Source: Ziziphus jujuba
Lineage: Eukaryota > Streptophyta > Magnoliopsida > Rosales > Rhamnaceae
NCBI RefSeq assembly: GCF_031755915.1
Contig: NC_083390.1
Location: 18,631,001-18,695,000 of the forward strand
DNA length: 64,000 bases
Reading direction: 5' to 3'
Shown: piece after piece, positions 7,008-27,933 of the stretch
Layout: each line of letters starts with the position of its first letter
Position numbering within the stretch: position 1 is the first letter of the stretch
Position numbers and translations under genes: made by a program
The notes under the pieces: generated by a model
What the model was told of the DNA's origin: nothing
Databases searched by the model: none
The model's input: the letters and a program-made list of their open reading frames with translations, nothing else

Positions 7008-7045
<38 letters not shown>

Positions 7046-7195: not shown

Positions 7196-7689
7196 GGGGA
7201 ATTTAGCCCAATACCCACAAAAATAAACGGCTAATGATATTTACCCGTTCTTTGTCAAGTTTTTTTTATCTACCCCCTGCTTCCTATTTTGCCCCTCATA
7301 AAACAAAAAATTACTTTACTTTCCTTTTCTCATTCTTAAAGCCAATAATTCCGAGTCCCTGCACCTCTGCTTTCCTTTCTTTCTTCTTGCCTGAGAAAAC
7401 CCACAAATAATCCCATTAAAAATCCTGCTCGACCTCTTTTTTCCTTTCCTCCATGAAAAATCAAATTTACATCTTTTGATTTTTTCTGTGTGAATTCTTA
7501 GCTAATATTACTGTATCGGTGGCCTTGATATGTAATTGGTGCTTTGTAGGGTAATTTGCAAGTTGCAAATTTATATGCTGGTACCGACAGTGTAGAGCTC
7601 AAAGGCCTGAAATAATTGCTGAATTGAATTATTTCTTAAGGCATTGTATCTGCAAGTTGCAAGTGTATATTCTTTTCTCAAAGAAGCCG

Positions 7690-8174
7690 TTCCTGGTGTT
7701 TTTAGAATCTGTCGGCTACTCGCAAGAAGATGTGCTCCTTTAGAAGCCCGAAGCTGCGTATGTATAGCTTCAAATCATTCTTAATCAGAATGCTTAAATC
7801 ACCCTTGAATCAGGCTTTCTGATCTAGATTCAAATGTGGGTTAATATCAGTTACTGAGTAGTATAATGCTTGCAGCTCCTGAAGCCTACTTTCACAATTA
7901 CATGTGATAAAGATTCCAAATGCTTCCTTTGATAAAGATTCAAAATACTTCCTTTTATTGATTCGTGGAACCCATAGCATCAAAGATACACTAACAACAG
8001 CTAGTGGTGTAGTGGTACCTTTCCTCTCTTTTATTTTTCATGATGGTGGGATAAGCAATTTGGTTCTGGTTTTTGCATATTGTGGGATGGTTGTTGCTGC
8101 TCGTTGGATTGCTAAGCTCAACACTTCATCCTTGCTTAAGGCTCTCAATGACTATCCTGACTACAAAGTTAAGG
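7690..8174 (+). pseudogene. Class 3 lipase fragment (captured)
   Basis: Two exon-like pieces. The first, 7690-7757, codes GYSQEDVLL and is followed by a GT donor; the second, about 7876-8174, follows TTGCAG and codes YFLLLIRGTHSIKDTL, then the HDGG and YPDYKV region, ending at a GTAAAC donor. This resembles the N-terminal half of plant class 3 lipases (putative diacylglycerol lipases); the GHSLGG catalytic elbow that should follow is absent. Copy A has TAG (7740-7742) where copy B has CAG, and both have a TGA caused by a 25-bp tandem duplication of GATAAAGATTC near 7910-7945. Broken, with no catalytic serine. Confidence 0.65.
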
Positions 8175-8550
8175 TAAACAACATTTATTTTATCTAAGAA
8201 ATAAGTTAATTTCTTATTCAATTGCATATGATCTTGTTTCTCATTATGATACTATAGGAATGTTGTCTGAAATTTCACATGCTTGGGCTTGATTGGGTTG
8301 CCCCCTTTATAAAAGGTTACATGAGTGTAGAAAGATATATATATTGTCACTTAGCACACAATACTTGCTTTGTAATGCATTCATGTAAGGTTTTGTCTGA
8401 AAACTCATTGTTTTAAGGTTTTATGTCATATGCTCTAAGTTGTTACATAGAAAAATACATTTAGATGGCTGCATAAAAAGTTTCTATGGGCTATATGTAA
8501 ATGAAACTAGTTCTGTATATTGACTTCCTTTAAATGTTCTAGGCTTCTAG

Positions 8551-9190
8551 GATCACTTAGTGTACAAAGGACACCAAATATTCTTGTACAAAAGAGAACA
8601 AATATCTGCTACAAATTTGTGGGGTGCATTTCAAGGCCAAGGATATGGAGAATTTAATGACATTAGATCCATTACTATTATGGTCGATTATATTGTTCCA
8701 GCGGTTCTTCAACAACTTGGCATGCTGAAATACAGTTCAAAGCTTGCCAAATTGATTGTGGCTAATAATGAAATAGATTTAGGCAGTGAGGAGGAAGTTA
8801 ATCCATATATGCTATGGAGAGGATGAAGGAGTTGATCAGTAAAAAATCAGGGAAGCAGGTGTTGCTAAATTCCTTTGACATTTCTAGCAATTTAGTACTT
8901 GTATATTTCCTTTTGGTATTTCAATGATTTTCACTCTTTTTGTTTAGATCAATCTATGTCCTTCTATTTTTTTCTTTTGCTTTTTTTTTTCCCAATAGTA
9001 TATATAATCTTTCTCTTTGTTTTCTCAGTGTTTTCCCGTTGTTTTTATTTATTTATTTATTTATCTAGTTGTTTAAATCATGTGACTTTTGTATTCAGGT
9101 GCTTAGTGTGGAGTTAGACCTTTGGCTTTGGTCTTTTGGCATTCAATTTCCATCTCTGCAACACCACTGAACACTTTCAACATATTAATG
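8551..9190 (+). pseudogene. Queuosine-salvage protein (QNG1/DUF2419) fragment (captured)
   Basis: The first piece (8551-8890) codes IFLYKREQI, LWGAFQGQGYGEF, then SITIMVDYIVPAVLQQLG; this follows the FYKRAQ ... ITMFADYRLPQVL pattern of queuosine 5'-phosphate N-glycosylases. A second piece follows a CAG acceptor at 9099-9190 and codes LSVELDLWLW, then HH, a TGA where the family has Arg, then TLSTY, matching the C-terminal SILLDYYLW/HR/IYY block. The N-terminal half is missing. A 16-17 bp deletion near 8798 shifts the frame in this copy; copy B keeps those bases. It lies just downstream of the lipase fragment in the same orientation. Confidence 0.8.
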
Positions 9191-10080
9191 AGCTCACCAT
9201 ATCCGATGGTGTCCTTAATTTATGCTTCTAACTGTAAGATTATAGGAACTAGCATAGTAAGTTTTGGGGCGAAGTCATTAGACAGATGTATCTATAAATT
9301 CCTCGCATCTATTTTTCTTTTTGCATGGTTGTAGCTTTTCTTAATTTTGAGAAGTACTACTAATATTAGCCTTGAGTTGATGAACCAAAAACTTATTGTT
9401 TTAAAAATTGACCATTTGATATGTTGCTATTACCTATTTTGAGATATCTGTCACTTGTATTTTCTATTCACTGTAAAAAAATTAGTGGCTTTGTAATGTC
9501 GCAGTAGGTGTCATAGCTTTTCATGTTATTTTTAATTTATGTTTAACAACTCTATATGTACCTTGAACCTCTAGATTATATTTCATTGTTTGCCCTTTAA
9601 AGATGACAAAATAGAGTTGCTGAAACTCTTAAAACATCTTCAGCAGGTGTCTGTTTATAGGCTTTAGATTCACTAAACATTTGATATTATACAGAATTAC
9701 ATGTAGTAGCAACGAAATTAATTGTTTTTGTACGTGGATTGGATTAATATACATTAATTCAAATAACAAAGTAAAAAAAAAAAGAAAGAAAAAAAAGCAT
9801 TGGAAGAAGTGAAAGAAAAAAAAGCATTGGAAGAAGTGAAAAAATGACAAATTAACTTCAATACTGACGGGCAATCGGTACACCGATGGAAAAAGTCGGT
9901 AATCCAATTAATTATTTTACTACTTGATGGAAAATTTACCGATGGATCAATGGTAATTGTCAATTGTTAATTTTTTCAATTGAACTCACCACAATTCAAT
10001 ACAACCTTTGATAATATGTATTTACATCAAGAACATGCTAAATGGAATTTTATTTCATTATAAAAATGAAGGTAAATATA
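9191..10080. other. MULE-1 interior without a gene
   Basis: No coding signal recognised. AT-rich. It contains a 22-bp motif built on AAAAGCATTGGAAGAAGTGA, present twice at about 9796-9841 and only once in copy B. From about 9867 it carries short inverted motifs of the form ATCGGTACACCGATGG and TTACCGATGG that foreshadow the adjacent array. Confidence 0.55.
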
Positions 10081-10890
10081 GTTGACAAATTTTTTGACTC
10101 CCACAAGTCCCCTAATGTGTGTTTTGTGCAACAACATGCAAAATATACATTCATCAATGATCCTAAACAGCAAAATCCCCATAAAGTTTGGAAAAAGTTC
10201 TAAAATTGCCAAAAAAATGTGATTACCGTCAGGCCTTCGGTAATTTTTCCAGCAAGGACAATTTGATTACTGATAGTTTCATCGGTAATTACCGAAGGCC
10301 CAACGATAATTAAATTTTTTTGGCAATTTTAGAACTTTTCTGAACTTTATGGGGATTTTGCTGTTTAGGATCATTGATGAATGTATATTTTGCATGTTGT
10401 TGCACGAAACGCACATTAGGGGACTTGTGGGAGTCAAAAAATTTGTCAACTATAATACCGAAAGCCCTTCGGTAATTATCGATGAAACCTTCGGTAATTT
10501 TTCCAGCAAGGGCAATTTGATTACCGATGGTTTCATCAGTAATTACCGAAGGCCTTACGGTAATCAATTTTCTTTTGGCAATTTTAGAACTTTTTCTGAA
10601 CTTTAAAGGGATTTTGCTGTTTAGGATCATTGATGAATGTCTATTTTGCATGTTGTTGCACGAAACACACATTAGGGGACCTGTGGGAGTTAAAAAATTT
10701 GTCAACTGTAGTTATCGAAGGACCTTTAGTAATTACCGATGAAACCTTCGGTAATTTTTCCAGCAAGGGCAAGTTGATTACTAATGGTTTCATTGGTAAT
10801 TATCGAAAGCCCTATGGTAATCAAATTTTTTTGGCAATTTTAGAACTTTTTCCGAACTTTATAGGGATTTTGCTGTTTAAGATCATTTAT
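10081..10890. repeat. 255-bp repeat array with head-to-head hairpin (MULE-1, copy A)
   Basis: One inverted unit (10081-10214) faces two direct units whose marker GTGGGAGT sits at 10427 and 10683, a 256-bp step. Each unit has a conserved half (CCCCTAATGTGTG ... ATGATCCTAA ... TTGCCAAAA) and a half made of palindromic TTACCGATGAAACC / GGTTTCATCGGTAA motifs. The arms 10081-10214 and 10317-10450 form a near-perfect inverted repeat. The same family occurs in MULE-2 (25725-26745). Confidence 0.88.
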
Positions 10891-11225
10891 GAAGGATGTT
10901 AATTTTTTTTATATAATGTAACTATGTAACTATGATAATCTTAGGGTTAATTGATGCATAATGGATGAGGAATATGTATATGTTTGTGTACGTATATGAA
11001 AATATGGATATATATATATATATATATCCATATATATATATATGGACTGAAAAATAATTGCATAGTACAAGACAAAGTATATGCTTCATAAGAAAACGGC
11101 TATTGGACCTGAATTCATCCACCATATCAACAAATAAAAGAATTTTTCAAAAGCCATGAAAGTAACTCAATACCATTGGAAGCTTTGCCTTTGAAAAAAA
11201 GAAAAAAAAATGTCAAACTAGATGG
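10891..11225. other. AT-rich spacer with AT microsatellite in MULE-1
   Basis: No gene. Contains TATA dinucleotide arrays (about 11009-11042) flanked by mirrored CATATA/TATATG runs; array length differs in copy B (48632-48674). Confidence 0.6.
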
Positions 11226-11672
11226 TTAAAACAGCTTTAATGGAATGAAGTGGAAATTTATGGCTTTAATTCTCTTTTGTGAACAATAAATAGCCTTGTG
11301 GAAGACTTGACTCACAAGCAATTCAATACTAACATTTCTCAACTGCATTGAACCACCAATGGTTGGCTTGCATATCTCTTCAACGGAAGAATCAATTCCA
11401 CCCACCATGCATCCTTTAAAAGGTGCAACATGACTCATCCGCATGAAAGTTCTATTCCATGGACACAAATCTTTTAAATTTCTCATTTCTTGATGTTGGC
11501 ACATCACCATCTGCTGGAACTCAAGCAAGTTCACACGATCTACCTGAGCATTGACTTGTATTCTCCTCAGAGTTTGCTCAAGCTTCATCAGCACTTCCTG
11601 CTCTTGTAATAGTTGTGTTGTAGCAGCGACAAATCTTTTCATTTTCTTCACTTTCCTATCCATTTTCTTCAA
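11226..11672 (-). pseudogene. DUF668-family protein fragment (captured)
   Basis: An open stretch of about 148 codons. Its N-terminal part (KKMDRKVKKMKRFVAATTQL, then LEQTLRR, LLEFQQMVM and LKDLCPWNRTF) resembles the conserved block of plant DUF3475/DUF668 proteins (the PSI1 family), where WNR(T/S)(F/Y) is followed by DYVVRLLARS. Here that continuation is replaced after WNRTF by an APFKGCMVGG...DSSVEE stretch resembling a later part of the same family, so an internal deletion is likely. The opening ATG would be at 11661-11663. Copy B is at 48869-49303. Function cannot be retained with the domain cut. Confidence 0.55.
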
Positions 11673-13439
11673 TCTATATTCCTAGCCAAACCATTGAAAA
11701 TCATTCTGAATAGGATCATTACAAAATTGTTCAAGACGGTGATAAACAGGATTGGCACGTCCTATATATGCACAATCATACAAAGAAACCAAAAGATATT
11801 ACGTGTTACTGTTTACATTTGGATGGAAATTTCAATTTTTAAATAAAGAGAAGCACTAAAACAAAAGTTAACATCACACTGATAGAACAAATTCACTAAA
11901 TGAATCGAAGAAACCAAGTTGGCCAGGAAGAGTTTCCAACAACCTACTAAACGGGTGGCTAATATTGATTTAGATTTCCCATTTTCAAAAGAAAAAGTCA
12001 AAGAGTAGTTTTAAATTCTCCAAGATTCTTCATATGCTATCACCATTAGTGCAAGTACCTTAAACATTTTTTAGCACAAGAAGAATTACATGTATCATGC
12101 AATCAGATTAATCCAATCAAACAACCAATATCAGCCAGGAAGAACAGATTGTTTATACCTTTATGTACCTTCCAAATTTAGTTCCTTGATCTTTTCTAAT
12201 AGTGGAACAACAGGTTCCATGACAATATAGATAGCAACCTTTGTCGTATTACCATGAAAAGTTTTAGTCTCCATACTATAAAGGAATGATAAAATATTTG
12301 GATGTCTGACCTGAAAAGAACAAACGTGACTTTTTTTATACTAGTAGGTATCGCAAAAAAATTCCTTTACAGAAGGCTACTAACAGAAGGATAAAGTAGC
12401 TAGACAGGGAAACAAAACATGTATTAAAGCTTTAGAAAAATAGGCATACTATCAAACAAAATCTATGGACTCTGAAAAAACAACCATGTTGAGTTAATGC
12501 TTGATAAAACTAAAAATTTAAACATTTTGTTACAAAAATATTACACTTAAATTTAATCAGATTATTGGATTTCAAATTTCAAGGATGTAAGAATCTTTCA
12601 TATCAATTCCCTCTTTGATTTTGATAGGTGTATGTGACAAGAAAATCCATAATGCATCAATCCGCTAATATCTAAATTCAAAAAAAGTAGCAACCAAAAT
12701 ATTGAAAATTGCAAAGAGAAGAATATTTAAACCAATCCAAGAAACCAAAGAGAATAAGAACTTTCTCAAGAAAAATACTAACCACATCAAAGAGTAAAAC
12801 AGATGAGAACTTATAGTTCTTAGGCGCTTTACACCATTACGACCAGCAGCTAAATGTCCATCTTGGCATTACTTCCAGAAAGAGAAAATATACATACAAC
12901 AGATCCATCATCCTAAAATACCAATTAAAAGTATATCAACATATCATGTATTTATATATGATAAATTTTTCTTAGATTAGAGAAACTGAAGATTGAAATT
13001 CGTAATTGAAGTATAGGAAATAGCCAATAATAAGATCTTAGGAAGATCTGAGCATATAGACACATCCAAGACTTTAACAGAACAGGTTATGGAATATCTT
13101 CACTACTAAAATTTTCTCTTCATTTGTATAAGCAAAAGCATTATATAATTTCCACCACACACACGCGACCCAATAAAACATATCAACAAACAGTTAAAAT
13201 GCATATGATTTTGGCCCCAAATAGTAAAACCCAGAAATAATAGCATTCTAAAAACAAGTTCAGTAATTAATAATTACTATACCCCATCTATAAGATCCAT
13301 TAACTTAATATTTTCAATTGTAATAATCAACAAAATTTCCAGAACAGCTACTAAAAACAAAAATAAAAGCAGACCCAAAAAACTAGACGGAACAAAAAGT
13401 AAAAGAAGATTTAAGGGGGCTGAATGATCATCGTCACCT
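11673..13439. other. MULE-1 interior, intron-like, no gene recognised
   Basis: AT-rich sequence with no long open frame and no motif I recognise. It may be captured intron sequence of the flanking minus-strand fragments, since a CATCAG/GTGACG donor-like site on the - strand lies at about 13439. Copy B (49304-51069) is nearly identical. Confidence 0.5.
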
Positions 13440-13672
13440 GATGAGGTTATTGTTTTAGTTGTCTCAGTGAGTCAGTGAGAAGCAGAGGAATGGGAAGAGT
13501 GTTGAGAAGAAGAAGAAGCAGAAGAGGAAGGAGGAGTTTGTTGTAGACTTGCTCGCCAACTCCGAGGACAAGACCGAGAAGGGCATGGCAGAGCTGATTG
13601 CTGAGCCTTGGATGCTTCCTCCACTCTCTTCTCCTCCTGAAGAACTCTGATTTTCCCAAAACGCTTCGCCAT
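13440..13672 (-). pseudogene. Complex I subunit NDUFB3 (B12) first-exon fragment (captured)
   Basis: On the - strand an ATG at 13672 begins MAKRFG. After a frame change the next codons read EFFRRRREWRKHPRLSNQ, then HALLGL and GVGEQVYNKL. This is the order of plant NADH dehydrogenase 1 beta subcomplex subunit 3 (MAKPLG..., EFFRRRDEWRKHP, HALPGL, VGEQVYNK), a small inner-membrane accessory subunit. The transmembrane stretch between GL and VGEQ is shortened. A CT-rich leader typical of a 5' UTR lies at 13673-13740, so the captured 5' end abuts the right TIR of MULE-1. Copy B is at 51070-51302. Confidence 0.65.
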
Positions 13673-13892
13673 TCTCTCTCACTTTCTCTTCCTCTTCCTC
13701 TTCTTCTTCGTGCTCCGTTTAGGGGGAAAATGGCGTAACCTTACATCTTCATTCTTCCTTTTCACATTTGAAAAGGGTAATGTGGGGATATTTAAAAATA
13801 GAAGGGTAAAACAAAAAAGGTTGGAAACGGATGGGTAGTTTTCATTAAAGCCTTTAAAACAAGGGTATTGGACCAAATTCTCCTATGGTCTT

Positions 13893-15267
13893 TTCAAGCG
13901 CAACAACGCCCCAGCTATCTAGGCAATGTCATTGTGGAATCAAAAGTTGTCATCAAAAAGTCTTTCCCAAAAAAAAAAAAAAAAGAAAATTAATCGTGTG
14001 CTGACGAGAGTAAGTTATCTATTGATAGGTATTGAAGGGAGATTTTAGTTATTTGAAGCAGGGGTTAATAATATTTTCAGTTACCGCATAACTATGGGTG
14101 TGAAAATGAGATTGTAAAATATTGGAAGACTTCCAAAGTTTTGATTCTTTAATTAAAGAAATGAAAAAATCTTGGAGAGTTACTATTGTAAGAATTGTAA
14201 TAATAGGACACCCAATTAATGCATTGTGCAAAATAAAGCCGATGTTTCACAAAACGTCAAAACGTTACAAATTTATTGAAATTTCGATGGATATTATAAA
14301 TATTCTATCTATTTTTATTTGAAATCCAAATTTATTTTCGAATCTATCTTTTAAAAAAAAAATTCAAAAAAAAAATCAGTATTTAACCTTGAATAAAACT
14401 TTATAATACTTTCAGTAAATGAATAACTATGGGTGTGGAAACGAGATTATACAATATTGGAAAACTTCTAAAATTTTGATTCTTTAATTGAAGAAATGGA
14501 AAAATATTGGGAGTTGAAACAAACCATAGTCGAAGCTCATTCAGAGAATTCTCAAAACAAAGAACTTCAAACTGAACAAATGGATCTTTCGGCTTCTGAT
14601 TTGCACCAACGATCTGTTAGCTATAGAGTAGCAAACACAAAGAGAAGGAAAATAAATTTTGTGCCATTATTGTTTGTGCAAAAATAAATTAATAAATAAA
14701 TAAAAAGGGAGGAGATGGGAGACATGATCCAGTCATCAGACTCTCGCAATAAAGGATCGAGTTGATCGACCACCTCTTAGCAACAGCATGTTAAATAAAT
14801 ACAAGTCATCCAGCCTATTAAATCCTTATAGACTACATACTTAATATTACTTATATGCAGGGTAACACCCTCCAAGCTTTGTCAGAATCAGTCAAAAAGC
14901 CTTATGCTCAAATTAAGCTAACCAGATTCAAAGAAGCCTTAATTCTCTAATCGAGTTAACTAGGTTCCAAAAAAAACAAAAAACATCCTTAATGCTCGAA
15001 CAGAGCTAACTAGATTCAAAAAAAATTATGCTCATTAATGCTCATTAGAACTAACTGGCCATGTAATACAGCAATCCGACAATGTTAAAAATAAAATAAG
15101 TTGTATCATATTGTAGAGGTTTATTGTATGCTATAGATAAATCCTCGAATTTAAAATATTTCATACTTTCTTATAATGGATCAAATTTTTTATGGCTAAA
15201 GTTTACTTATCCCTATATAAGAAAAAATTAAATGACATATGATATTATCCATTATAACAAAATTATT

Positions 15268-15303
<36 letters not shown>

Positions 15304-16069
15304 AAAAGACAAGGTATCCAATGCTCATCATTGCTAATCAATAATGGTGTTCCCATGCTCATTAGAGCTACGTCAGCTAACACGGTGCATTTTATATGTA
15401 TGAACAAGATCATCATTTAATTTCTTTTTTAAGTGGAGGCCCAATAAGGTTTACCAAGTACTGTGGAGAACTATTTCTTCAAGTGTGGATTTGTGAACCA
15501 AGTAAATCATACACGTATTCGCCACTGGAAAAATGCAGTTTTAGGTGTATACTCGCATATGGTATGAGTAATTAGCTGGTTACACGGAACAGGGGATTAA
15601 CTGGACTTTAAGGGGGAGCGCTGATAAAAAGGGGAAAAAACCATAACGCATGGCTTAGAGATTCTAACAGCTGAATTCATATACGTACATATAATAAGTA
15701 TGGAATCGAAAGTTGGAAGTCTGCTACCTAAAAGCCCATCCCAATCTTACCAGTTTTATTCTATACGTATGCAAATACATTTAGAAAAAGAATAGATTTA
15801 ATATACTCCACGCAAGTGAAAGGGACATAAATATCCAAATAATAAGGTGTGACAAATTAGAAGGAAAGTTAGAAATTAAAACTCTCGGACACCATGGAGG
15901 GACTATCAATATAAATTCTTCCTATATATCATGGATGGTGTAATGTCATTGAGCTAGACATCTCCATCTCTGGATGCAAGTTCCTCAAGGTAGGCTGCTG
16001 TTTATAAAAATGTTCAACAAAAAAAAAATAAAGACCAAGGATTCCTCAAGGTAGGCTGCTGTTAATGAG
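13893..16069. other. R2 distal upstream region, first part
   Basis: No gene. Homologous to the region after 27934 (for example 28010-28330) and to 51523-52835 plus 58794-59645. It holds an A run at 13971-13984, an insertion-like duplication at 14075-14513, an AT/CA microsatellite at about 15271-15303 and the empty site of the copy-B hAT (CTTATCCC at about 15208-15215). Confidence 0.6.
14075..14513. repeat. Direct duplication of a ~100-bp block
   Basis: The block CTATGGGTGTGAAAATGAGA ... ATTGGAAGACTTCC ... ATTCTTTAATTAAAGAAATG at about 14090-14175 recurs at about 14427-14512. The paralogous region near 28222-28315 has it once, so about 340 bp were added here. It is also present in copy B. Confidence 0.7.
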
Positions 16070-16275
16070 ATGTTTAATAAAATCAAATAAAGACCAAGGA
16101 TCGAGGCTCACAAGGTTGGTGGGGCTGTCGTAGAAGACATTGAAGGCGAGAATGAACTTGAGGATGCATACTTGAGATACCATACAAAGCCAGATGTGCA
16201 ACTCCTTGCTGGATTCTCGTTTGTATGTTCCATGTGAAGAAACAGTTGCTTTATGGTCAAAGTGGCAGCGAGAAG
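16070..16275 (+). pseudogene. ABCB-type transporter fragment (Walker A region)
   Basis: One frame reads GGAVVEDIEGENELEDAYLR, then YHTKPDVQLLAGFS, matching the stretch just before the first nucleotide-binding domain of plant ABCB/P-glycoprotein transporters ([25 protein letters not shown]...GFS). After a frame change, codons for YGQSGSEK at about 16253-16276 recall the Walker A motif GQSGSGKST. A TAA lies seven codons after the putative ATG. An old relic with homologues at 28941-29049 and 59646-59851. A 62-bp direct duplication sits just upstream (about 15985-16100). Confidence 0.65.
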
Positions 16276-17840: not shown

Positions 17841-17937
17841 ACGTAGGCGCTAAAAATAAATTAGTAAAAGTCAGTCAACATGGAAAAATATGTTTTGTTT
17901 TGTCTACCAAATAATATTCAACATGATCAATCACACC

Positions 17938-18143: not shown

Positions 18144-18158
18144 GTGCCAACAAATATC

Positions 18159-21107
18159 ATGAAGATGAGAGGTACTGGTAGATCGATTGCATGGTGTGCT
18201 GGACTTGTATTATCCATTGCAACCATTGCTATATTCAGCGAGGGTGGCAAAAGTATAGTTCAAGCACGGTGCATAGACAGTGAGAGACAAGCTCTTCTTG
18301 ACTTCAAACAGGGCCTTGAAGATTATCATAACACCTTATCCTCTTGGACAAGCGGCGAAGGAGAAGACTGTTGCCTTTGGAGAGGTGTCAAATGTGACAA
18401 CAAAACCAATCATGTTGTGGTACTTCTTCTTGGTGATCATGTTCTTGCACCAGGCAACTTTGGTCATGACTACTCCAGATACTTTCATGACTTTGATTAT
18501 TTTGTCGTAATGGCGCCTAACAGTAGGTTCGGCGGTGAGATTGGCTCTTCCTTGGTTGAACTGAAATACTTGAGGCACTTGGACCTTAGTTGCAATGATT
18601 TTTCAAGGATTCCAGAGTTCATTGGTTCTTTAACTCGGCTTAGATACCTTAACCTTGGATTTAATCCAATAAGTGGAACTATCCCTTCCCAACTTGGTAA
18701 TCTCACTAGGCTGCGTTTTCTTGCTCTTGATCGTGCCGATGAGTTGATTGCTGATAATCTGGAATGGCTTCCCCGTCTTTCATCGCTGACAACCCTTAAA
18801 TTGGGTACTCTCACTCTATCCAAGCCCGCCGATTGGCTTCAATCAATCAAAATGGCCCCTTCATTGTCAAGCTTGGAATTGGTTGGGTGCTATTTTCCTT
18901 ATAAGGTAGCTACTTCATCTCTTTCTCATATAAATTCTTCCAATTCTCTTAGAACTCTTGTTATAAAATACAGTAAATTCCATCCTACAGCAATTCCTTG
19001 GTTGCTCAATGTCAGCTATAATTTAGTCAATCTTACTATAAAGCATAGTGAAATAATAGGTCCACTCCCAAATTCTTTTGACAGTATGAGGTCCCTTGAA
19101 AACATTGATTTGAAATCAAATAAACTTGAAGGTGGAATACCAAAATCCTTGGGGAATCTTTGCAATGTAAAGTCTCTGGATCTTTCTTTCAACCTTTTGA
19201 ATGACACGCTACATCTAATAGAGACTTTGACTGGTTGCACTGCCAAGTCCTTGGAGATTTTGTATTTGCATGGCAACGAACTTGTAGGTTCATTGCCTGA
19301 TCTTTCCCAATTCTCATCCTTGAAAGAGTTACGCTTAGCTGATAATAAACTAAATGGTAGCTTAGCGGAAAGTATTGGCCAGCTCTCTAATCTTGAGATC
19401 CTAGAAGTTTCTTCAAATTATATTACTGGAGTTATCTCCAAAGCCCACCTACAAAAATTATCCAAATTGAAGGGGTTAGATTTATCATTCAACTCCTTAA
19501 CATTGAATTTTGAGTCCAGGTGGGTTCCACCCTTTCAACTCTTTTCCTTAAAGTTGAGTTCTTGTAAGTTGGGTGCACCATTTCCTGGTTGGCTTCAGAC
19601 CCAGGTGAAATTGTTTAACATTGATATCTCTAAATCCGGTATTTCAGACAATATCCCTGACTGGTTCTACAATTTGACACCCAAATTAATCAACTTGAAT
19701 CTGTCTTTCAATTCTTTCAAAGGTATCTTACCAAATTTTCCCTTGAGATATGATAACTACCCAGTCATTGATTTGAGCTCCAACCAGTTTTATGGTTCCG
19801 TTCCCGTTTCTCTTGCTAATGCATCTGCACTGATTATCTCCAATAATTCAATTACGAGCTTCAAGCTATTCTTATGTACAGAACTATCTGATCGGCCAAC
19901 AACTTTTCTTGACCTTTCTAACAATATGTTATCTGAAAGCCTTCCTGATTGTTGGATGCATTTGGGTAAATTGAGAGTTCTTAATTTGGAAAACAATAAA
20001 TTGTCTGGAAATATTCCTTCCTCATTGGGTTCGCTGGATCAAATTTCAACACTGCGTTTGAGCAACAACAGCATCTCAGGAATTTTGCCTTCCTCGTTGA
20101 AGAATTGCAGTTTGCTACGACTTTTAGATGTTGGACAAAACAATTTGTATGGAGAAATACCAACATGGATTGGAGATTATCTAACTGATTTGATTGTCCT
20201 ACATTTAAAGTCAAATAGATTCTATGGGAGCTTACCTTTAAGTTTATGTCACCTTAGTGATATTCAAATACTGGATCTTTCCCTAAATGATTTATCTGGA
20301 GTCATTCCAAGGTGCTTCCATAACTTTACCCCAATGATTCATGGAGTACATGATTCTGATAGCGCTGCTTTTGTCGATGGCATTGATGCCTCATATATCA
20401 TTGATCAATCGAGAGGTTATGGACGAATCTTTGTAAATTATGAATACATAACATGGAAAGGGAAAAACTACAAGTACGACAAGAATCTCAGACTACTCAG
20501 AATTATTGATCTTTCAAGTAATAAACTGAGCGGAGAGATTCCCACAAATCTGACAAATCTTGTAGAGTTGGTCCAGTTAAACCTCTCAAGGAACAACTTG
20601 AGTGGAACCATCCCTGAAAGCATAGGGAAGATGAAGCTACTGGAATCTCTAGATCTATCTCACAACCAGCTTTCTGGTAAAATTCCAATGGGATTAGCTG
20701 ATATATCTTTTTTGGCATTCTTGGACTTATCGAATAACCAATTGTGGGGGAGAATCCCTACAGGAACTCAATTGCAAAGCTTTGCAGCTTCTGACTATTC
20801 AGAGAACAGAGGACTTTGTGGACCTCCTCTGAATGTTAGATGTTGTGGAGATGGAGAATTGCAAGAAACTTCTACTTCATGCGAAACCGGTGCTGGAAGA
20901 AACGTTGAAGAAGATGATGAAGAGTGGGTTGATATGTCATGGTTTTACATGGGAATTGGAGTTGGATTTGGTATTGGCTTTCTGGGAACCTGTGGGTTGG
21001 CTTGGTATTTCAACACTTCCTGGAGACGTGTTTATTTTAACCAGCTTTTGAATCGTCGTCGTTGGAGGACTAGCAAGTACGGAGCTAGATTAAGAAGGCC
21101 ACTTTGA
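18159..21107 (+). CDS. LRR receptor-like protein R2 (EIX2/Ve1-type), intact
   Basis: Probable cell-surface immune or developmental receptor without a kinase; family members signal through SOBIR1/BAK1-type co-receptors. Start: the first in-frame ATG is at 18159 (an in-frame GTG at 18144 aligns with the ATG of R3), giving 982 aa in a single exon. Layout: signal peptide about 1-37; N-terminal cap with Cys38 and the DCCLWRGVKC motif (about 70-79); leucine-rich repeats from about 121; a non-LRR island about 723-779 (ending WKGKNYKYDKNL); four further LRRs (IDLSSNKLSGEIP onward); a Cys-rich cap (LCGPPL, RCC); acidic EEDDEEW about 916-923; a transmembrane segment about 927-951 with GxxxG spacing (MGIGVGFGIGFLG); and a basic 31-residue tail. 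The ligand is unknown. This is the only unbroken copy here; R4 is its near-identical sister. Confidence 0.95.
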   Translation: MKMRGTGRSIAWCAGLVLSIATIAIFSEGGKSIVQARCIDSERQALLDFKQGLEDYHNTLSSWTSGEGEDCCLWRGVKCDNKTNHVVVLLLGDHVLAPGNFGHDYSRYFHDFDYFVVMAPNSRFGGEIGSSLVELKYLRHLDLSCNDFSRIPEFIGSLTRLRYLNLGFNPISGTIPSQLGNLTRLRFLALDRADELIADNLEWLPRLSSLTTLKLGTLTLSKPADWLQSIKMAPSLSSLELVGCYFPYKVATSSLSHINSSNSLRTLVIKYSKFHPTAIPWLLNVSYNLVNLTIKHSEIIGPLPNSFDSMRSLENIDLKSNKLEGGIPKSLGNLCNVKSLDLSFNLLNDTLHLIETLTGCTAKSLEILYLHGNELVGSLPDLSQFSSLKELRLADNKLNGSLAESIGQLSNLEILEVSSNYITGVISKAHLQKLSKLKGLDLSFNSLTLNFESRWVPPFQLFSLKLSSCKLGAPFPGWLQTQVKLFNIDISKSGISDNIPDWFYNLTPKLINLNLSFNSFKGILPNFPLRYDNYPVIDLSSNQFYGSVPVSLANASALIISNNSITSFKLFLCTELSDRPTTFLDLSNNMLSESLPDCWMHLGKLRVLNLENNKLSGNIPSSLGSLDQISTLRLSNNSISGILPSSLKNCSLLRLLDVGQNNLYGEIPTWIGDYLTDLIVLHLKSNRFYGSLPLSLCHLSDIQILDLSLNDLSGVIPRCFHNFTPMIHGVHDSDSAAFVDGIDASYIIDQSRGYGRIFVNYEYITWKGKNYKYDKNLRLLRIIDLSSNKLSGEIPTNLTNLVELVQLNLSRNNLSGTIPESIGKMKLLESLDLSHNQLSGKIPMGLADISFLAFLDLSNNQLWGRIPTGTQLQSFAASDYSENRGLCGPPLNVRCCGDGELQETSTSCETGAGRNVEEDDEEWVDMSWFYMGIGVGFGIGFLGTCGLAWYFNTSWRRVYFNQLLNRRRWRTSKYGARLRRPL

Positions 21108-22110
21108 ACTTGGTAAGAGCGTTTCCATTTTTATTTTTTCTTTTCTTTTTTCTTATTTTAATCTGCTTTTTAATTATCATTTTTGTGTGTCTGTAATATA
21201 ACTTTATTGTGTTTCAGTTTTAATGTTTACAAGGACCGCAACGCATTGGCACTTTGAAGAACCATCAATCAAAATTATAATACAGCGAAGGGCATGTGGA
21301 AATTAAGCACCTGATACATATGTTGTCCGGTCATGAAATCATTCCTTTTGAAAGAAAAACCAAAAAAAAAAAAAAAAAAAGGATTTATGTTTGTGTGTTG
21401 TGTGTATCTAGCTTATTGTGAAATGATTCTTGCATGATGAACAATAAAACCCTATTGGTATGGCATTCCCCTGGCAGTTCTTGTGGTTGCTTCTATAATT
21501 GTGTTTTGTGTTGGTGTAAACTCTATAAGTGAAGCCTTTCTGTTTGTAATATTATTGAATTCAACTTCCTAAGTAAATAAGTATTAATATTTTCTATTTT
21601 GATTTTATTTCTTCCATTTTCCATTTGTCTAAAATTTTTTAACCTCTTTCTAGTTATATGTAAGTTGATGTGTTCTTAATACTATATATTAATCTGCTCG
21701 AATTTCATTCTTAATTACTATTTGAAAAAAAAAAAAAAACATTATAAAGTAGATAATCTCTATTGATTATAAAATTAATTAATAAAACAGAGAACAATAT
21801 CACATATAGCTAAGAAGATCAGATAACGATAAATATACAGATTTAGTAATTTTCGCAGCTAACCAACTATTTCTGCTGTAATTACTGTTAATTAATAGTA
21901 TATATTGAGCACTGTTCCCAATTAATTAGATTTATGTGGCTTGCCAACATATTAAATTATAATATATATGTATAATATATATATATATATATATGTATAT
22001 TATATTTGTTTGTCACTAAGAACAAGAGGTTCCTTTGCATTACTTGCATACAGCCCCTTAAGTTCATCAGGCTTAAGTTTAATTGGGCCGAAATTAAGTG
22101 ATTGAAAAAA
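21108..22110. other. R2 3' flank
   Basis: No gene. A possible polyadenylation signal AATAAA lies at 21443-21448, with A/T runs and an AT array at about 21960-22005. Homologous to the flanks of R1 and R3. Ends at the left TSD of MULE-2. Confidence 0.6.
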
Positions 22111-22400
22111 GGGGAATTTGGCCCTATATCCTCATTTTAAACACCTTAATGAAAAATACCCCCGCCCTTTAAAACTTTTTCCATCTACCCATCTTTTTTT
22201 TCATTATTCCAACTTTATCCTTACTCTGTAAACCACGTGCAATTTCTCTCTCACTGATCAATATCTCACCCACCACATTCCACATCCAGACAGAGCTTTT
22301 ACAGCTTTAACAGCTCACCTCTTCTTCTCTGCTGCTTGTCTTCTGGTGATGTTCTTCCCCAACATCCGTCTACAACCCCATCGCTTCCAATCAGCTCCCT

Positions 22401-22640
22401 TTGGCTGTAATTAGCGATATTTACCTTCTAGACTTCGTGGATCCGTCTGGGTTTGTTCAGGAAATCTCTTCCAAGGTCAGCAGAGTGGTGGTTTCGAATC
22501 ACTACAAGACCGCACTAGATTGCAGTGAGAGTTCTTGTTCAGTTGGTGAGAATGTGGAGAGGGTTATTGAGATCTGGAGGAGTGGAGCTACTGTTGTTTT
22601 TTATTATTTCAAGGAAAGAGCTGGTAGTGGTCTAAAAGAT
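22401..22640 (+). pseudogene. DHH-family phosphoesterase fragment (captured)
   Basis: The open stretch codes IYLLDFVDPSGFVQEISSKV, then RVVVSNHYKTALD, ENVERVIEI and RSGATVVFYYFKE. This follows the plant DHH/DHHA1 (nanoRNase/pAp phosphatase-like) pattern of LDFVGPSGF...RVIVLDHHKTAL...RSGATVAFDYFK. The hallmark DHH reads NHY, so two of three motif residues are changed. Its 5' end lies about 290 bp from the left TIR. A second coding-looking piece (about 22855-22935; NDSLGQSYEIALVAGAFGDC) follows in the same orientation, but I cannot assign it. Confidence 0.6.
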
Positions 22641-22935
22641 TTGAATTTTGTTTCGATGAGGGTTTGATCTTTGAATCCATCTTCGTTCAAGCGAGTAATT
22701 TGTTTTTATCGGTTTATTGATTTTTCATTTTATTTTATTTTATTTTTTAAAGCTGTAAAGCTACAAAATTCTCTCTTTATTTGGGTGTATAAGGCTTTTG
22801 CATTTTCTTTTTTTGAAGTTGGAGGATGTAATTAGTCAAGGATTAACCGGCTTATCCTAGAAGCAGGAATGATTCTCTCGGTCAATCATATGAGATTGCT
22901 CTTGTGGCTGGAGCATTTGGAGATTGCCTGGTATA

Positions 22936-24957
22936 GTCAATGTATCCTTCTGTCTCTCCAAACATGGGTCATTGTAGCATTTTTATATATGTTCTTGTAC
23001 TTATTTGCTCCAGCGTATAGAGGTGTTGTGTTAGGTAGAAGTGAATTGATGACTGAATTCTTAGTGTACAGTCATGTCAAGTTTATACATTTGTTTATGT
23101 TAGATTTGTCCTTCCATGCATAGGCTATGAAAGCTAATTCTTTATTGGAGTTGAGGAGTGAACTTGGACATAAATTAGCTAACAAACGTTGTAATCTAAA
23201 GTTGAGGTGTTGAGGTATGAAGCTATCTACCTACAAATATGATTGTCAATGTATTTATAGCATATTTTTCTTTTTCTTTTTTAACATTCATTGATTAGAC
23301 ATTTTTTTTTTTTTTATGTTATTAGTTGACTTCAATTTATCCCTAGAAAATAAGTAGGCTTGGAGTGTACGTTAGTTTAAATCTAGTCTAAAGTTGTTAT
23401 TTTGCCAGCTGCACTAATAGTTGTTGACATGTTGTGGGCCTGAGGCAACTTAAGGACTTAAATGACATAGATGATTACAATAGCTTCACATTTCATTGGA
23501 GAGATTTCTTTTCTTGAAGAATTTCTGTTCTTTTCTCCTTTGAATGTATTGATTATTGGCTCGCCACATTTAAGCATTTACATGCCAGTTTTCTCGTAGT
23601 TATAATTCCTATGGAAAAGTAATGTTGAGGACCGAGACTGGTAAGTATGGCGTTAATTGCTTAGGATATTCTTTCTAGAGTTATAATGTGGTAGATTGTT
23701 TTTTTCTCCAGTAATATATATTCATGCAACAGAGAAATCATACTTTAGTTCTCTCTGATAAATTGGATAAGCCCCTTTGTCAGAATAAATAACAGTCAAT
23801 CACTGGGCATTGGAAATCACTTCAACTCTACGATGATGTGGTTCAGATAATACACCTAATCTTTTCCTTGGTTAAGGATTTAATGCCAATACTTCTGTAG
23901 ATTTGTATTCCTACTTTCTTTTGATTATCTTTGAAGTGTCACAACTAAAAATACCTCTAGTAACTAAAAATGCCTCTAGTGTCACAACTAAAGGACTATA
24001 GGGGGTTGCAGAATAATATAAGAATAGCTGCCAACCAAAGAAGTCTTTATAAACAAGCCACTAAAGAAGTGAATTTAATAGCTCTTATGACTGGAGTATA
24101 TTTAATATAGACTTTTGAATATTTTTATGAACTTTTTTTAAGTGATTACTTTTACGAACTTAATGCAATTCTATTTGGAAAAAGTACTTTTTTATTACAA
24201 ATTTTTATGTTATTGCATGATTTTTATTTTAGCAATATATTTTGTTTAAATGTAATGACCTTGATTTATTTGTTACTTATGGTTCTTAGGCTTTTATGAA
24301 GTTTTCTTATGAAGTTCTTATGCCACAGTCTGATTTTCACTACTGAAGCTACAGCTAGGTGGGTGGGTGGGTGTGTGTGTGTGTGTTTTTTTTTTTTTTC
24401 TTTGAAAGAAAAATGTAGAAACAGGCATGCAAAATGTTTGAGGTCTAGGCCTTTTTATCCGAGCTTGAGATATCCTTTGATTTACTGGGTTTGCGAATGG
24501 GAAAGTTTTGTTGTTTAGTCTATCGGTGTGGTCCCTCTCCTTCCCTGCTCTATTATCATTATTATTTCTATAGGCTTATTAATTTCATACAAAAAAATAA
24601 AAATAAATAAACATATTCAAGGTAGGTTTGACATGGACTGGTTATCTCCTCTAGAGTTTAAGGTGATGGTATGTGATATAAAAACCACATGAAAAAAATT
24701 GGGGTTGTAGAGGTCGGAAACCAAGTTGCTTTCATGAGTTGAGTTAATTAAACTTGTCAGCGCCTTGCTGTAGAAATTGTTGCAAATATATGACAGGCTT
24801 GTTGCCTTGTTAATGATTTTCAAGTTGATATTTCTATAACTATATCAAAATGGTTTGTATAAGTCCTTTATATTATTATTGATTTTCGGGGATCATTTAA
24901 ATCTTGTTAAAATGTTTAAGAAGCAACTAGTAATGTTTTTACATACAAATCTTTTTC
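22936..24957. other. MULE-2 interior, intron-like, no gene recognised
   Basis: AT-rich sequence with T runs, a GT/GGTGG microsatellite at about 24358-24385 and no convincing open frame on either strand. Possibly intronic material carried with the captured exons. Confidence 0.5.
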
Positions 24958-25054
24958 CAGGCTCAGCAGACAGAACTGTGAAATTCTGGGATTTGGAAAC
25001 CTTCGAACTGATTGGATATACAAGCCTCGGAGTCACCGCATTCAATGTCTACTT
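24958..25054 (+). pseudogene. Katanin p80 WD40 subunit exon fragment (captured)
   Basis: After a TTTTTCCAG acceptor, the exon codes GSADRTVKFWDLETFELIG, the WD40 repeat motif typical of katanin p80 (KTN80), the microtubule-severing targeting subunit. It degenerates after about 30 codons, and a GTGAGC donor-like site follows at about 25055. Only one repeat of the propeller is present, so no function is expected. Confidence 0.7.
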
Positions 25055-25724
25055 GGTGAGCGAGCAGGTCTGCAGTCGAAGAGAGCTTGGGAGAGAAAAG
25101 AGAAAGCGAGAGAGAGCAGGTCTGCAGCTGGTATTCTTTCTTATATTTTTTTATCATTAAAGAATGTTGCACTCAACATGTTCTATGGTGCAATACATTG
25201 TTAAAAAATAATTGTAAATTTGGATGATTTGTGAAAGAAAATTTTTTACGCAATTTTGATGATAATTAAAAAGATCCTCACCTTAAAAGCATATATGGTC
25301 CGGTATTCCCTTGTTCCCTATATTGTTTATGCTCTTTATCTCTTGTGTAGCAGAAACTAGTTGAGCTCCATTTGATCTCCCAGAAGCGGAATCTGAATCC
25401 GTTGTAGGCTATAATGTGAATGCAATTTTTCCTAAGTCTTTCATATGCTTACAAGAGGAGAGATGAGAGATGCTTTTTCATAGAGGAAAGGAAAACAGAG
25501 GTGGTATTACTTTGGTAAAATAGTATTGTGTTTTAATTATTTCATATGTTATTTACCGTTATAAAGATGGCGTTATCATGACAATACGATATTAATGTGT
25601 GTATGGAATTATGGTGGGAATAATTATTTATTCTTCGCGCAAATACACATTATCAAAGTAGGTATATTGAATTGTAATGATTCAAAATGAAAAATAAAAG
25701 AATTGGCAACAACATGGTTATCAC
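25055..25724. other. MULE-2 interior spacer
   Basis: No gene recognised. Includes a purine-rich GAGAGAAAAGAGAAAGCGAG stretch (about 25083-25117) and AT-rich sequence leading into the repeat array. Confidence 0.45.
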
Positions 25725-26745
25725 ATTTTACCAATTTTTTGGCCCCCACAAGTCCTCTAATGTGTGTTAAATGCAACAACATTCAAAATATACATTCATT
25801 AATGATCCTAAGAAGAAAAAATCCCAAAAGTTCTAAAAAAGTTCTCAAATTGGCACAAAAATTTGATTACCGTAGGATTTTCGGTAATTACCGATGAAAC
25901 CTATGGTAATCAATTTGTCCTTACTTGAAAAATTACTGTAGGTTTTATCGGTAATTATTGAAACTCCTATGGTAATCACATTTTACCAATTTTTTGACTC
26001 CCACAATTCCCCTAATGTGTGTTAAATGCAACAACATGCAAAATATACATTCTTCAATGATCCTAAGGAGAAAAAATCCCAAAAGTTCTGAAAAAGTTCT
26101 CAAATTGGCATAAAAATTTGATTACCATAGGGCCTTCGATAATTACCGATGAAACCTACTGTAATCAATTTGTAGTTACTGAAAAAATTACCGTAGGTTT
26201 TATTGGTAATTACCAAAACCCCTATGGTAATCATATTTTACCAATTTTTTGGCCCCCACAAGTCCCCTAATGTGTGTTAAATGCAATAACATGCAAAATA
26301 TACATTTTTCAATGATCCTAAGGAGAAAAAGCCCCAAAAGTTCTGAAAAAGTTCTCAAATTGGCACAAAAATTTGATTATCGTATGGCATTCGGTAATTA
26401 CCGATGAAACCTATGGTAATCAATTTATAGTTGCTGGAAAAATTACCATAGGTTTCATCGGTAATTACCGAAACCCCTATGGTTATCACATTTCACCAAT
26501 TTTTTGGTCCCCACAAGTCCCTTAATGTGTGTTAAATGCAACAACAAGCAAAATATACATTCTTCTATGATCCTAAGGAGAAAAAACTCCAAAAGTTCTG
26601 AAAAAGTTCTCAAATTGGCAAAAAAAATTTATTACCGTCGGACCTTCAGTAATTACCGATGCAACTTATGGTAATCAATTTGTCCTTGCTGAAAAAATTA
26701 CCAAAGATTTCATCAGTAATTACCAAAACCCTTGTAGTAACACCA
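25725..26745. repeat. 255-bp tandem repeat array, four units (MULE-2)
   Basis: The marker (GG/GA)(C/T)CCCCAC occurs at 25741, 25996, 26251 and 26506, an exact 255-bp period. Units share TAATGTGTG, TGCAACAACA, TATACATTC, AATGATCCTAA and CAAATTGGCA, followed by palindromic TTACCGATGAAACC / GGTTT(C/T)ATCGGTAATTACC motifs. Same family as the MULE-1 array, in the opposite orientation to its direct units. No spacer or leader structure, so not a CRISPR. Confidence 0.92.
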
Positions 26746-26984
26746 AGCCATCACACCCAAACACAAAATTAATCTACAAATTCTTTGATAACCAAAACTC
26801 CAAAAAGAGTTCAAGAAATTCAAATTATTTAGACCCATTTCACTAAAAACACCATACTAAAACCCATATTCCATTTTCATAAGAAAATGCAGAATTAATG
26901 AAAAAAAAGAATCGTTTTCTCCATAAGAAGGGGGAAAACAAAAAAAAAAGAGTAAAGGGAAGTACTTGACCAACAATGGCAGCT

Positions 26985-27790
26985 AGAGGGAAATACTATC
27001 TTCCATAAGGAGTAACATATGGGTTCTTCTTTGGAGCTAGTACGGCTCCATTGCCATTGCCAGAGTCAGCTAGACCTGGCAATTCGTGTTTGTGGATCGT
27101 GTTCGTGTCAAAAATGCCTAACCCGAACACGATCCATTTATCAATCGTGTCAGGTACCTAAAATACTAACCCGACCTGTTTATAAACAGGTCAACACGAC
27201 ACGACCCGTTTAATACGATTATTTTAACGGATTGTGTTGACCTATTAACCTGTTAACCTGAAATTGACCTATTAACCCGTTAACCCGAAAATTAATCTAT
27301 TAACTCGAATTTTTTTTTTATTTTTATGTTTTTTTTTATTAAAGATGTATTTTTTGTTTTTAAAAAATTAGTAATAGAAAATTATTTTTATAAAATTTTT
27401 AATTTATAATATTTTTTAGTTATTAAATATTATATTAGTGATAAAATATTAATTTAAAATTAAATTTAAATAGGTTGTAATAGGTGTATAATCGTGTCGG
27501 GTTGAAACTGACACGTTTAATAAATGGGTCGTAACGGGTCAATTTTGAATTAAACAGGTCAACCCGAAAATGACACGATTAATATTTGTGTTAAACGGAT
27601 TGACCCGATTATGACCCGAACCCATTTATAATAAACTCAAGCCCATTTATTCCGTGTCGTTTTCGAATCGTGTCGCCGTGTCATGACCCAAATTACCAGG
27701 TCTAGAGTCAGCAGCAGTAGCATTTGCATAAGCACAAACATAAAGGCCGTGGAAGTGAAGGCGTTGAGTTGAAAGAAGAAGAAGAAGCAA
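26985..27790 (-). pseudogene. Unrecognised captured gene fragment split by the hAT
   Basis: On the - strand, 27775-27705 codes LHFHGLYVCAYANATAADS. If the hAT and one TSD copy are ignored, the frame continues across 27070-26985 through a PKKNPYVTPYG stretch. I do not recognise the family. A CT-rich leader-like sequence lies upstream (27776-27800), and its 5' end points toward the right TIR, like the NDUFB3 fragment in MULE-1. Confidence 0.45.
27071..27704. mobile_element. Non-autonomous hAT element nested in MULE-2
   Basis: Terminal inverted repeats TAGACCTGGCAA / TTACCAGGTCTA, an exact 8-bp duplication GAGTCAGC (27063-27070 and 27705-27712), 634 bp, no transposase. Subterminal regions are dense in CGTGTCG, ACCCGTT and GGGTCA motifs on both strands, as in plant hAT elements. 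It splits a coding-like minus-strand stretch of MULE-2. Confidence 0.93.
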
Positions 27791-27933
27791 AAGAGTGAGA
27801 GAAAAGACATATAGGTCTTTTAAAAGTTTTTTAAAGGCATAATGGATATTAAAAGGCAAAGTAAAAAAGTTCATAATTCGGTAGGTATATATCTTCAAAG
27901 CTCTTTCAAAAGGAATATTGGGCCAAATTCCCC

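Follow-up and report, generated by a model that had tools for sequence, protein, structure and literature searches.

How pieces of unlinked host genes came to lie between similar ends is the question raised by two blocks, MULE-1 and MULE-2, in a 64,000-nucleotide window on chromosome 12 of Ziziphus jujuba. In this window LRR units are arrayed in tandem, with 98% duplications, and an earlier note had described the blocks as sister gene-capturing elements of the Mutator superfamily.

Ends and target sites of MULE-1 and MULE-2

A search of the window for GGGGAATTTGGCCCAATA, allowing up to three mismatches, returned exactly the six claimed termini, compared with a chance expectation of 0.07. The ends are related, as the earlier note had described; their similarity extends for about 120 bp and is weak. 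Local alignment of left with right ends scored 31.5 for MULE-1 and 39 for MULE-2, and the MULE-1 right end scored 51 against the MULE-2 left end, the maximum among 500 random pairs being 32.5. The score of MULE-1's own pair therefore falls within chance unless the anchored terminal 18-mer is counted. The 9-bp target site duplications (TSDs) were likewise found to be imperfect, as described, with two mismatches in each element. As these duplications are imperfect and the terminal inverted repeats (TIRs) diverged (left/right identities of 0.51 and 0.49 for MULE-1 and MULE-2), no recent movement is visible for the two elements themselves. No transposase was detected in either element by Pfam searches of all six frames or by tblastn, in agreement with the earlier claim, and PDB searches with two frames from each element gave no match.

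Empty sites had also been reported in paralogous flanks. That of MULE-1 was confirmed, a single copy of the target being present in the paralogous unit at 28013-28021, while the alignment for MULE-2, in unit 1 at about 7108-7111, was less clean. The duplicate of MULE-1 at 44581-51513 is real, and is part of a segmental duplication of about 98% identity rather than a second insertion. Since one duplication of the LRR array carries MULE-1 along, the blocks could in principle be segmental copies of host regions and no transposons at all. This holds for the 44581-51513 copy alone; as an origin of MULE-1 and MULE-2 it is extremely improbable, and was rejected because the parent loci are unlinked, TSDs and an empty site are present, and copies are scattered over different flanks.

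Table 1. Positions of MULE-1, MULE-2, their component parts and a coding relative (C, contig; percentages are identities)
Feature	Position	Strand	Details
MULE-1, non-autonomous gene-capturing MULE, 6688 bp	7196..13883	.	Terminal 18-mers, imperfect 9-bp TSD, empty site in paralogous unit
MULE-1 left TSD	7187..7195	.	TAGAGTCTT
MULE-1 right TSD	13884..13892	.	TATGGTCTT; 2 mismatches to left copy
Captured class 3 lipase fragment	7775..8386	+	81% to C11:27149880-27150580; left edge is the limit of parent DNA compared
Captured QNG1 (queuosine salvage) fragment	8408..9276	+	Q_salvage 7.4e-28; 89% to C7:13766400-13767400; right edge is the limit of parent DNA compared
MULE-1 255-bp repeat array	10073..10895	.	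With orientation switch
Captured DUF3475/DUF668 gene fragment	11322..11758	-	91%, in two pieces, to C11:8160200-8161400; 316 bp of parent missing
Right 2.24 kb of MULE-1	11643..13883	.	About 95% to mudrA-remnant subgroup (L010, L012, L016-L018, others)
Captured NDUFB3 fragment	13525..13650	-	phmmer 1.5e-12 to 7aqw_k (plant complex I); aligned in 5 relatives
MULE-2, non-autonomous gene-capturing MULE, 5823 bp	22111..27933	.
MULE-2 left TSD	22102..22110	.	TTGAAAAAA
MULE-2 right TSD	27934..27942	.	CTTAAAAAA; 2 mismatches to left copy
Captured DHH-like fragment	22277..22681	+	92% over 406 bp to C9:26989700-26990600
Captured WD40-like piece	24661..25017	+	94% over 302 bp and 87% over 55 bp to C1:20459600-20460200
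Mitochondrial nad1 fragment	25285..25418	+	1.1e-16; 90% to C13 (365,190-bp contig)
MULE-2 255-bp repeat array	25715..26739	+	About 4 units
Second MULE-1 copy	44581..51513	.	From segmental duplication including flanks
17.4-kb element	C2:33841615-33858993		Same ends as MULE-1 and MULE-2; perfect TSD

Captured fragments and their parent loci

The fragments were traced to unlinked parents (two sites on C11, and C7, C1, C9 and C13), which do not adjoin one another in the same order elsewhere; the lipase and DUF668 parents, although both on C11, lie 19 Mb apart. Several of the names first given to the fragments were sustained. The identity of the QNG1 and NDUFB3 pieces was confirmed, the latter having no Pfam match, and that of the lipase was weak in the element itself (Pfam, 0.09) and recovered through its parent (Lipase_3, 6e-5). 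The translated QNG1 fragment is 83% identical in amino acids to its jujube parent LOC107424965 and 80-82% identical to Rhamnella proteins. The lipase and QNG1 fragments retain non-coding parts of their parents, and their homologies end no more than 22 bp apart. For the piece called DUF668, the parent gene does contain that domain according to Pfam; the captured stretch, however, lies between the DUF3475 and DUF668 domains and has no relevant Pfam match of its own. Capture of this piece in spliced, intron-less form (from cDNA) was considered and dropped, as the parent reading frame is continuous across the 316-bp gap, which indicates an internal deletion.

Two names in MULE-2 were not supported by a significant Pfam match. 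The first piece, called DHH phosphoesterase in the earlier note, had no Pfam match, and its presumed parent locus on C9 runs into N. The second, putatively katanin p80, gave a sub-threshold Pfam beta-propeller match (0.005) and WD40 matches in PDB that are sums over repeats with no single significant stretch. The nad1 piece is an addition to the earlier inventory.

The annotated queuosine-salvage models P0121, P0122 and P0231 were 85-91% identical to the MULE-1 fragment, compared with 83% for the parent. Judged by this similarity, some annotated jujube "genes" are probably transposon cargo, a warning for the use of such gene models.

Relatives of the two elements in the jujube genome

Exact terminal 18-mers were found at 325 places genome-wide, and none was found with the reversed control. 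Of the sites listed, the first 100 (C1-C3) were examined for orientation: neighbours no more than 21 kb apart were facing in 21 cases, in the same orientation in three and diverging in none. When 22 facing end pairs were inspected, the 9-bp TSD was perfect in 16, had one mismatch in three and was lacking in three, whereas the best of 462 mismatched control pairings had two mismatches. The ends therefore do occur at the borders of other insertions. Gene-carrying copies were also dispersed: of 34 matches to the joined lipase and QNG1 segment (1291 bp), 20 hold at least 1230 bp of it, some of these places having arisen by segmental duplication. Five MULE-1-type copies were checked, of which two have a TSD of their own (C2:7.83 Mb, perfect; C7:1.47 Mb, one mismatch) and three lack one end. 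For MULE-2-type copies the left ends alone were compared, and six of seven share the start base in different flanks.

A MULE with the same ends and a transposase, which the earlier note had proposed to look for, was found in the 17.4-kb element, the most complete family member examined. It contains a mudrA transposase (MULE, 7.6e-20; SWIM, 6.8e-10; DBD_Tnp_Mut, 7.3e-8), the frame of which is interrupted by a stop codon, together with a VANC/KAONASHI-type DUF1985+Ulp1 gene in convergent orientation, similar to genes that enable some plant transposons to evade silencing. By tblastn the transposase is 92% identical to that of L027, a mudrA-type element with the same ends and a perfect TSD. Mutator TSDs measure 8-11 bp, usually 9 bp. 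The assignment to the Mutator superfamily is thus supported by 9-bp TSDs, family-wide TIRs and a mudrA-type transposase inside the same ends, the TIR evidence being weak for MULE-1's own pair. Gene pieces are also carried by CACTA, PIF and hAT elements of grapevine, according to the accessible part of PMC2528002, and by maize Helitrons, according to that of PMC13317346, and a different superfamily (Helitron, CACTA or hAT) could have captured genes while resembling a MULE. With 9-bp TSDs, inverted ends starting in GGGG and a DBD_Tnp_Mut/MULE/SWIM transposase in the same ends, such an origin is scarcely credible.

Judged from sequence comparison, elements of the family are recombinant mosaics. 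The right 2.24 kb of MULE-1 resembles a subgroup with transposase remnants, the right side of L011 is about 98% identical to group A, and 0.7 kb common to L009 and L027 adjoins the L009 array. Left/right TIR identity was 0.75-0.81 in L027 and five DUF1985+C48 carriers, and 0.49-0.58 in MULE-1, MULE-2, L009 and the mudrA-remnant group. The description of MULE-1 and MULE-2 as sisters stands in so far as their repeat units form one supported group (100/100); that group, however, is joined by single diverged units of four further elements, one apiece, which are placed nearer MULE-1 and come from the remnant subgroup just mentioned.

Host gene fragments from other loci, the lack of a transposase and the mobility of gene-carrying copies together point to Pack-MULEs. 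MULE-1 and MULE-2 are non-autonomous Mutator-superfamily elements with inverted ends of about 120 bp, the interior coding sequence of which was replaced by genomic copies of pieces of unlinked host genes and, in MULE-2, one mitochondrial piece. They would move in trans, served by a MURA-type transposase that relatives like the 17.4-kb element encode; the pieces may have been gained when a gap was incompletely repaired and the template switched, and the halves may have been reshuffled by recombination among family members. The cargo then spread with the element, to the 20 places holding the lipase and QNG1 pair and, for MULE-2-type copies, into at least six flanks. This explanation as a whole is, in our judgement, very likely correct.

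The 255-bp array and known transposon families

A 255-bp repeat array was present in 17 of the 18 elements read (16 of 17, plus the 17.4-kb element, where two opposed arrays lie between the two genes), including all five gene carriers without detectable mudrA, DUF1985 or C48. By analogy with the VANC target repeats of Arabidopsis VANDAL elements, it is conceivable, though rather unlikely, that the DUF1985+Ulp1 protein of the family acts on the array as a site in cis. Pack copies would then retain two signals, the ends serving the transposase and the array serving anti-silencing, and captured genes would be accompanied by an anti-silencing tag wherever they moved; this reading extends the Pack-MULE explanation and does not compete with it. 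Consistent with it, DUF1985 (2.1e-24) and Peptidase_C48 (1.7e-15) lie next to the array in L013 and both recur in the 17.4-kb element; DUF1985, with Ulp1, is present in coding relatives and absent in MULE-1 and MULE-2. Furthermore, CGGTAAT, a motif picked after the repeat had been seen, occurs 10.5 times per kb in arrays compared with 0.36 outside. According to PMC5735166, in the part available, VANC proteins contain DUF1985 and recognise short motifs within tandem repeats of non-coding DNA. The jujube motif, however, is unlike those of VANC21 and VANC6, L015 has DUF1985 without an array, and the array is internal to the element and could be retained passively; independent cargo sets number only about four (MULE-1, MULE-2, L009 and L011/L014). 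Pooled pN/pS of the exons (0.40, 0.64 and 0.78) came from few differences, which are not independent, and was too imprecise to support a claim; stops interrupt some copies.

We give an even chance to the array being neutral. It would then be a hot spot of recombination, or filler resembling a satellite, that persists by chance because its edges are where deletions and captures tend to begin. Copy number varies, units within one element are often alike, and several module junctions lie beside arrays (the L011 right side and the L009-L027 segment). The neutral reading accounts less readily for retention in five gene carriers that have lost mudrA and DUF1985-C48, and for the finding that 13 of the 17 elements with an array have full-length units in both orientations.

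Doubtful, too, is the suggestion that family functions are split over complete, DUF1985+Ulp1-only, transposase-remnant and gene-carrier elements, with the opposed arrays as a shared anti-silencing target. If true, Pack-MULEs would be two-signal elements, and captured fragments would be moved and kept unsilenced when the helper is active. This touches on why the genes that Pack-MULEs capture are in some cases expressed and dispersed, and on which sequence besides the ends non-autonomous copies must keep. A single genome here offers a two-gene element, DUF1985+Ulp1-only elements, several independent gene carriers and one common internal repeat, and the mapped parent loci allow captures to be polarised.

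Pack-MULEs, or MULE transduplication, were reportedly described by Jiang et al. in 2004. The jujube elements are like them in their MULE ends and 9-bp TSD, in having no transposase, in carrying pieces of several host genes in which non-coding parts are preserved, and in the amplification of this cargo. They differ in that the five gene carriers read measure 5.8-8.8 kb and all have an internal 255-bp array, and in that MULE-1 carries fragments of four genes and MULE-2 of three, one of them mitochondrial. Grapevine cases of MULE transduplication are given in the available part of PMC2528002, and Ziziphus is not mentioned in the main text of the Pack-TYPE survey PMC8903248.

Arabidopsis VANDAL and KAONASHI (KI) elements are described, in the available parts of PMC5735166, PMC10398659 and PMC13317346, as non-TIR MULEs. 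As far as those parts go, they resemble the jujube family in a mudrA-type transposase with a DUF1985 protein, in Ulp1 (KI type) and in non-coding tandem repeats. Because the jujube family has inverted ends, it was not filed as VANDAL or KI. On the same partial descriptions, it differs further in the layout of the 17.4-kb element, whose two genes point towards each other and towards a pair of opposed arrays, and in that gene-carrying derivatives retain arrays.

ULP1-containing MULEs of melon, rice and grapevine were reportedly described by van Leeuwen et al. in 2007. A ULP1-like region within a MULE is the shared feature, and no such array architecture appears in their description, in the part of PMC2528002 available. 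Among the best 150 of 1226 candidates for PF10551 in the jujube genome, the domains scored at least 83.5 bits, those of the family itself scoring 65.6 and 71.6 bits, so that this list does not bear on the family. The melon protein P0259 (PF02902 and PF10551) was among relatives of the jujube transposase, and the melon relatives listed were 39-44% identical to its ORF.

Ends, target site duplications and dispersed copies

The earlier note had placed six related termini in the window, bordering two non-autonomous gene-capturing Mutator-like elements, MULE-1 (7196-13883, with a duplicate at 44581-51513) and MULE-2 (22111-27933). The terminal 18-mer was found in the window at exactly those six places, and a search of the genome (394 Mb, 14 contigs) returned 325 occurrences, compared with 0 for the reversed pattern. 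Pairing of ends was based on the first 100 of these sites listed, on contigs C1-C3, where neighbouring ends at most 21 kb apart were facing in 21 cases, in the same orientation in 3 and diverging in 0. Target site duplications (TSDs) of 9 bp were sought at each of the 22 facing pairs lying at most 35 kb apart among the matches listed, a sample chosen by exact ends and therefore biased towards young copies; 15 were read whole and 7 by their ends, one of the latter being subsequently read whole. Perfect TSDs were present in 16 of the 22 and a single mismatch was seen in 3 (one in a run of A), with no TSD at L011, L015 and L021. The best of 462 mismatched control pairings had 2 mismatches. The claimed ends border other insertions. 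The TSDs of MULE-1 and MULE-2 carry 2 mismatches each, and these two elements therefore look older.

Gene-carrying copies were dispersed in the genome. Both ends were examined in five MULE-1-type copies: one had a perfect TSD (C2:7.83 Mb), one a TSD with one mismatch (C7:1.47 Mb), two at C2:30.3 Mb shared a left flank (duplicated DNA) and lacked the right end, and one at C9:21.8 Mb lacked the left end. Of the seven MULE-2-type left ends fetched, six shared one start position, each in a different flank; no end was found in the stretch read for the seventh, which belongs to a C2 cluster. About 13 same-orientation places, 85-90% identical to the left half of MULE-2, were also seen within some 374 kb at C2:31.98-32.36 Mb, and represent a local amplification of MULE-2-like DNA.

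Parent loci and exchange between elements

The joined lipase and QNG1 segment of MULE-1 (1291 bp) had 34 genome matches, 20 of which hold at least 1230 bp at 89-100% identity, MULE-1 and its window duplicate included. Its two halves mapped to separate loci, with alignments that cross non-coding parts and stop at points no more than 22 bp apart. No two of the mapped parent loci were adjacent, which by the earlier note's own reasoning argues for capture of unlinked genes and not for a simple segmental copy.

Parent loci of the captured pieces
Piece (element)	Window position	Parent locus	Identity	Remark
Lipase half (MULE-1)	7775-8386	C11:27.15 Mb	81%	
QNG1 half (MULE-1)	8408-9276 and on	C7:13.77 Mb	89%	
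DUF3475/DUF668 gene piece (MULE-1)		C11:8.16 Mb		
WD40-like piece (MULE-2)		C1:20.46 Mb	94%	
Piece called DHH (MULE-2)		C9:26.99 Mb	92%	locus then reads N
nad1 piece (MULE-2)		C13	90%	

We infer that C13, which is of mitochondrial size (365,190 bp) and carries nad1, is mitochondrial. Besides MULE-2, ten loci on C2, C3, C5, C7, C10, C11 and C12 hold copies, at 87-91% identity, of a segment of about 305 bp that includes the nad1 piece (25156-25460); shorter matches to this segment were seen close to other MULE-1-like copies, on C12 and C1. Three gene models of jujube var. spinosa assigned to the queuosine-salvage family (P0121, P0122 and P0231) are 85-91% identical to the MULE-1 fragment, compared with 83% for the parent; these annotations probably represent transposon cargo.

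The right 2.24 kb of MULE-1 showed about 95% identity to the subgroup with mudrA remnants, and the NDUFB3 piece is common to both. A query with the DUF668 piece gave 39 matches, 22 of which hold just its first 47-48 bp, so that those elements break inside a stretch continuous in the parent gene; the MULE-1 state at this junction is for that reason likely ancestral. On this reading, the right half of a gene carrier would have passed to an element that had a transposase remnant.

Gene content, the 255-bp array and mobilisation

Fifteen relatives were read whole, as was a 17.4-kb element (C2:33841615-33858993) with a perfect TSD, which carries both a mudrA and a DUF1985 gene in the order mudrA, plus-strand 255-bp array, minus-strand array and convergent C48-spacer-DUF1985 gene. 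Its mudrA consists of two same-frame ORFs split by a stop codon, with DBD_Tnp_Mut in the first and MULE and SWIM in the second. DUF1985 and C48 were present in five relatives (L013, L019, L021, L023 and L025), some of these genes being broken, and tblastn found no mudrA in any of the five. L027 retains mudrA together with part of C48, L010, L012 and L016-L018 keep the mudrA C-terminus, and L015 has DUF1985 only; tblastn detected none of the three in L009, L011, L014, MULE-1 or MULE-2. L009 has a perfect TSD and no transposase and represents an independent gene carrier, with three pieces of an oxysterol-binding protein (7.9e-13, 7.6e-9 and 1.1e-5) and with M24 and DUF7792 matches below threshold; L011 and L014 hold an mS41-like (mitochondrial ribosomal) piece (2.8e-10). 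Pooled pN/pS for exons of the DUF1985+Ulp1 gene was 0.40, 0.64 and 0.78, from few, non-independent changes.

A profile built from one MULE-2 unit located the 255-bp tandem repeat in the 17.4-kb element and in 16 of 17 others (the 15 relatives, MULE-1 and MULE-2), L015 giving no match; within the window it occurred inside MULEs only. Of the 17 elements with an array, 13 had full-length units on both strands; in MULE-2 and L009 these units were all plus, and in L011 and L014 all minus. The motif CGGTAAT, picked after the repeat had been seen, had a density of 10.5 per kb in arrays compared with 0.36 outside. A tree of 76 units, limited to 3 per strand and element, placed those of MULE-1 and MULE-2 in one supported group (100/100), which also took in a single diverged unit from each of L010, L012, L017 and L018; these four units lay nearer MULE-1.

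Movement of the gene carriers could have been provided in trans by the transposase of a relative, with capture through interrupted gap repair and template switching, and with exchange among family members. The VANC proteins of Arabidopsis VANDAL elements contain DUF1985 and are reported to bind short motifs located in tandem repeats in the non-coding DNA of the elements that encode them; Ulp1 is found in the KAONASHI types (PMC5735166, PMC10398659, PMC13317346). The jujube elements with a DUF1985+Ulp1 gene and repeat arrays resemble these, and the gene carriers keep their arrays; most speculatively, the array might be a candidate target of the DUF1985 protein. Both Pack-MULEs and MULEs that bear ULP1 have been described before (PMC13317346, PMC2528002). 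The listed titles and abstract openings of literature on jujube MULEs and on Pack-MULEs with VANC and tandem repeats contained no description of the jujube family and no gene-capturing elements with anti-silencing repeats.

The two insertion sites

The window, at C12:18631001-18695000, consists of tandemly arrayed LRR receptor-like genes. Self-comparison showed two duplications that account for its layout: an older one of units, at about 76-85% identity, and a recent one, at 98-99.5%, in which 1-20424 matches 34993-64000 in pieces. The two old units hold one element each, MULE-1 and MULE-2, and the MULE-1 duplicate arrived through the recent duplication. In paralogous coordinates, a distance of about 85 bp separates the sites of the two independent insertions (7108-7195 and 22097-22110), and an AT-rich repeat tract (7002-7043; 21958-22009) lies about 100-200 bp from both; this closeness hints at a common insertion hot spot. 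Outside the window, some 35 kb upstream of MULE-2, lies another copy of it at 99% identity (C12:18618379-18621726), which suggests that the array duplications reach further. Each of two stretches is present in just one of the two recent duplicates. One, of 5.9 kb (52845-58784), holds a 720-aa ORF (53864-56026, minus strand; hAT dimerisation 7.3e-29, RNase-H 5e-24), an apparently uninterrupted hAT transposase; the other (36468-38879) contains Copia-type retroelement pieces (RVT_2, rve), which also occur at 2136-2552.
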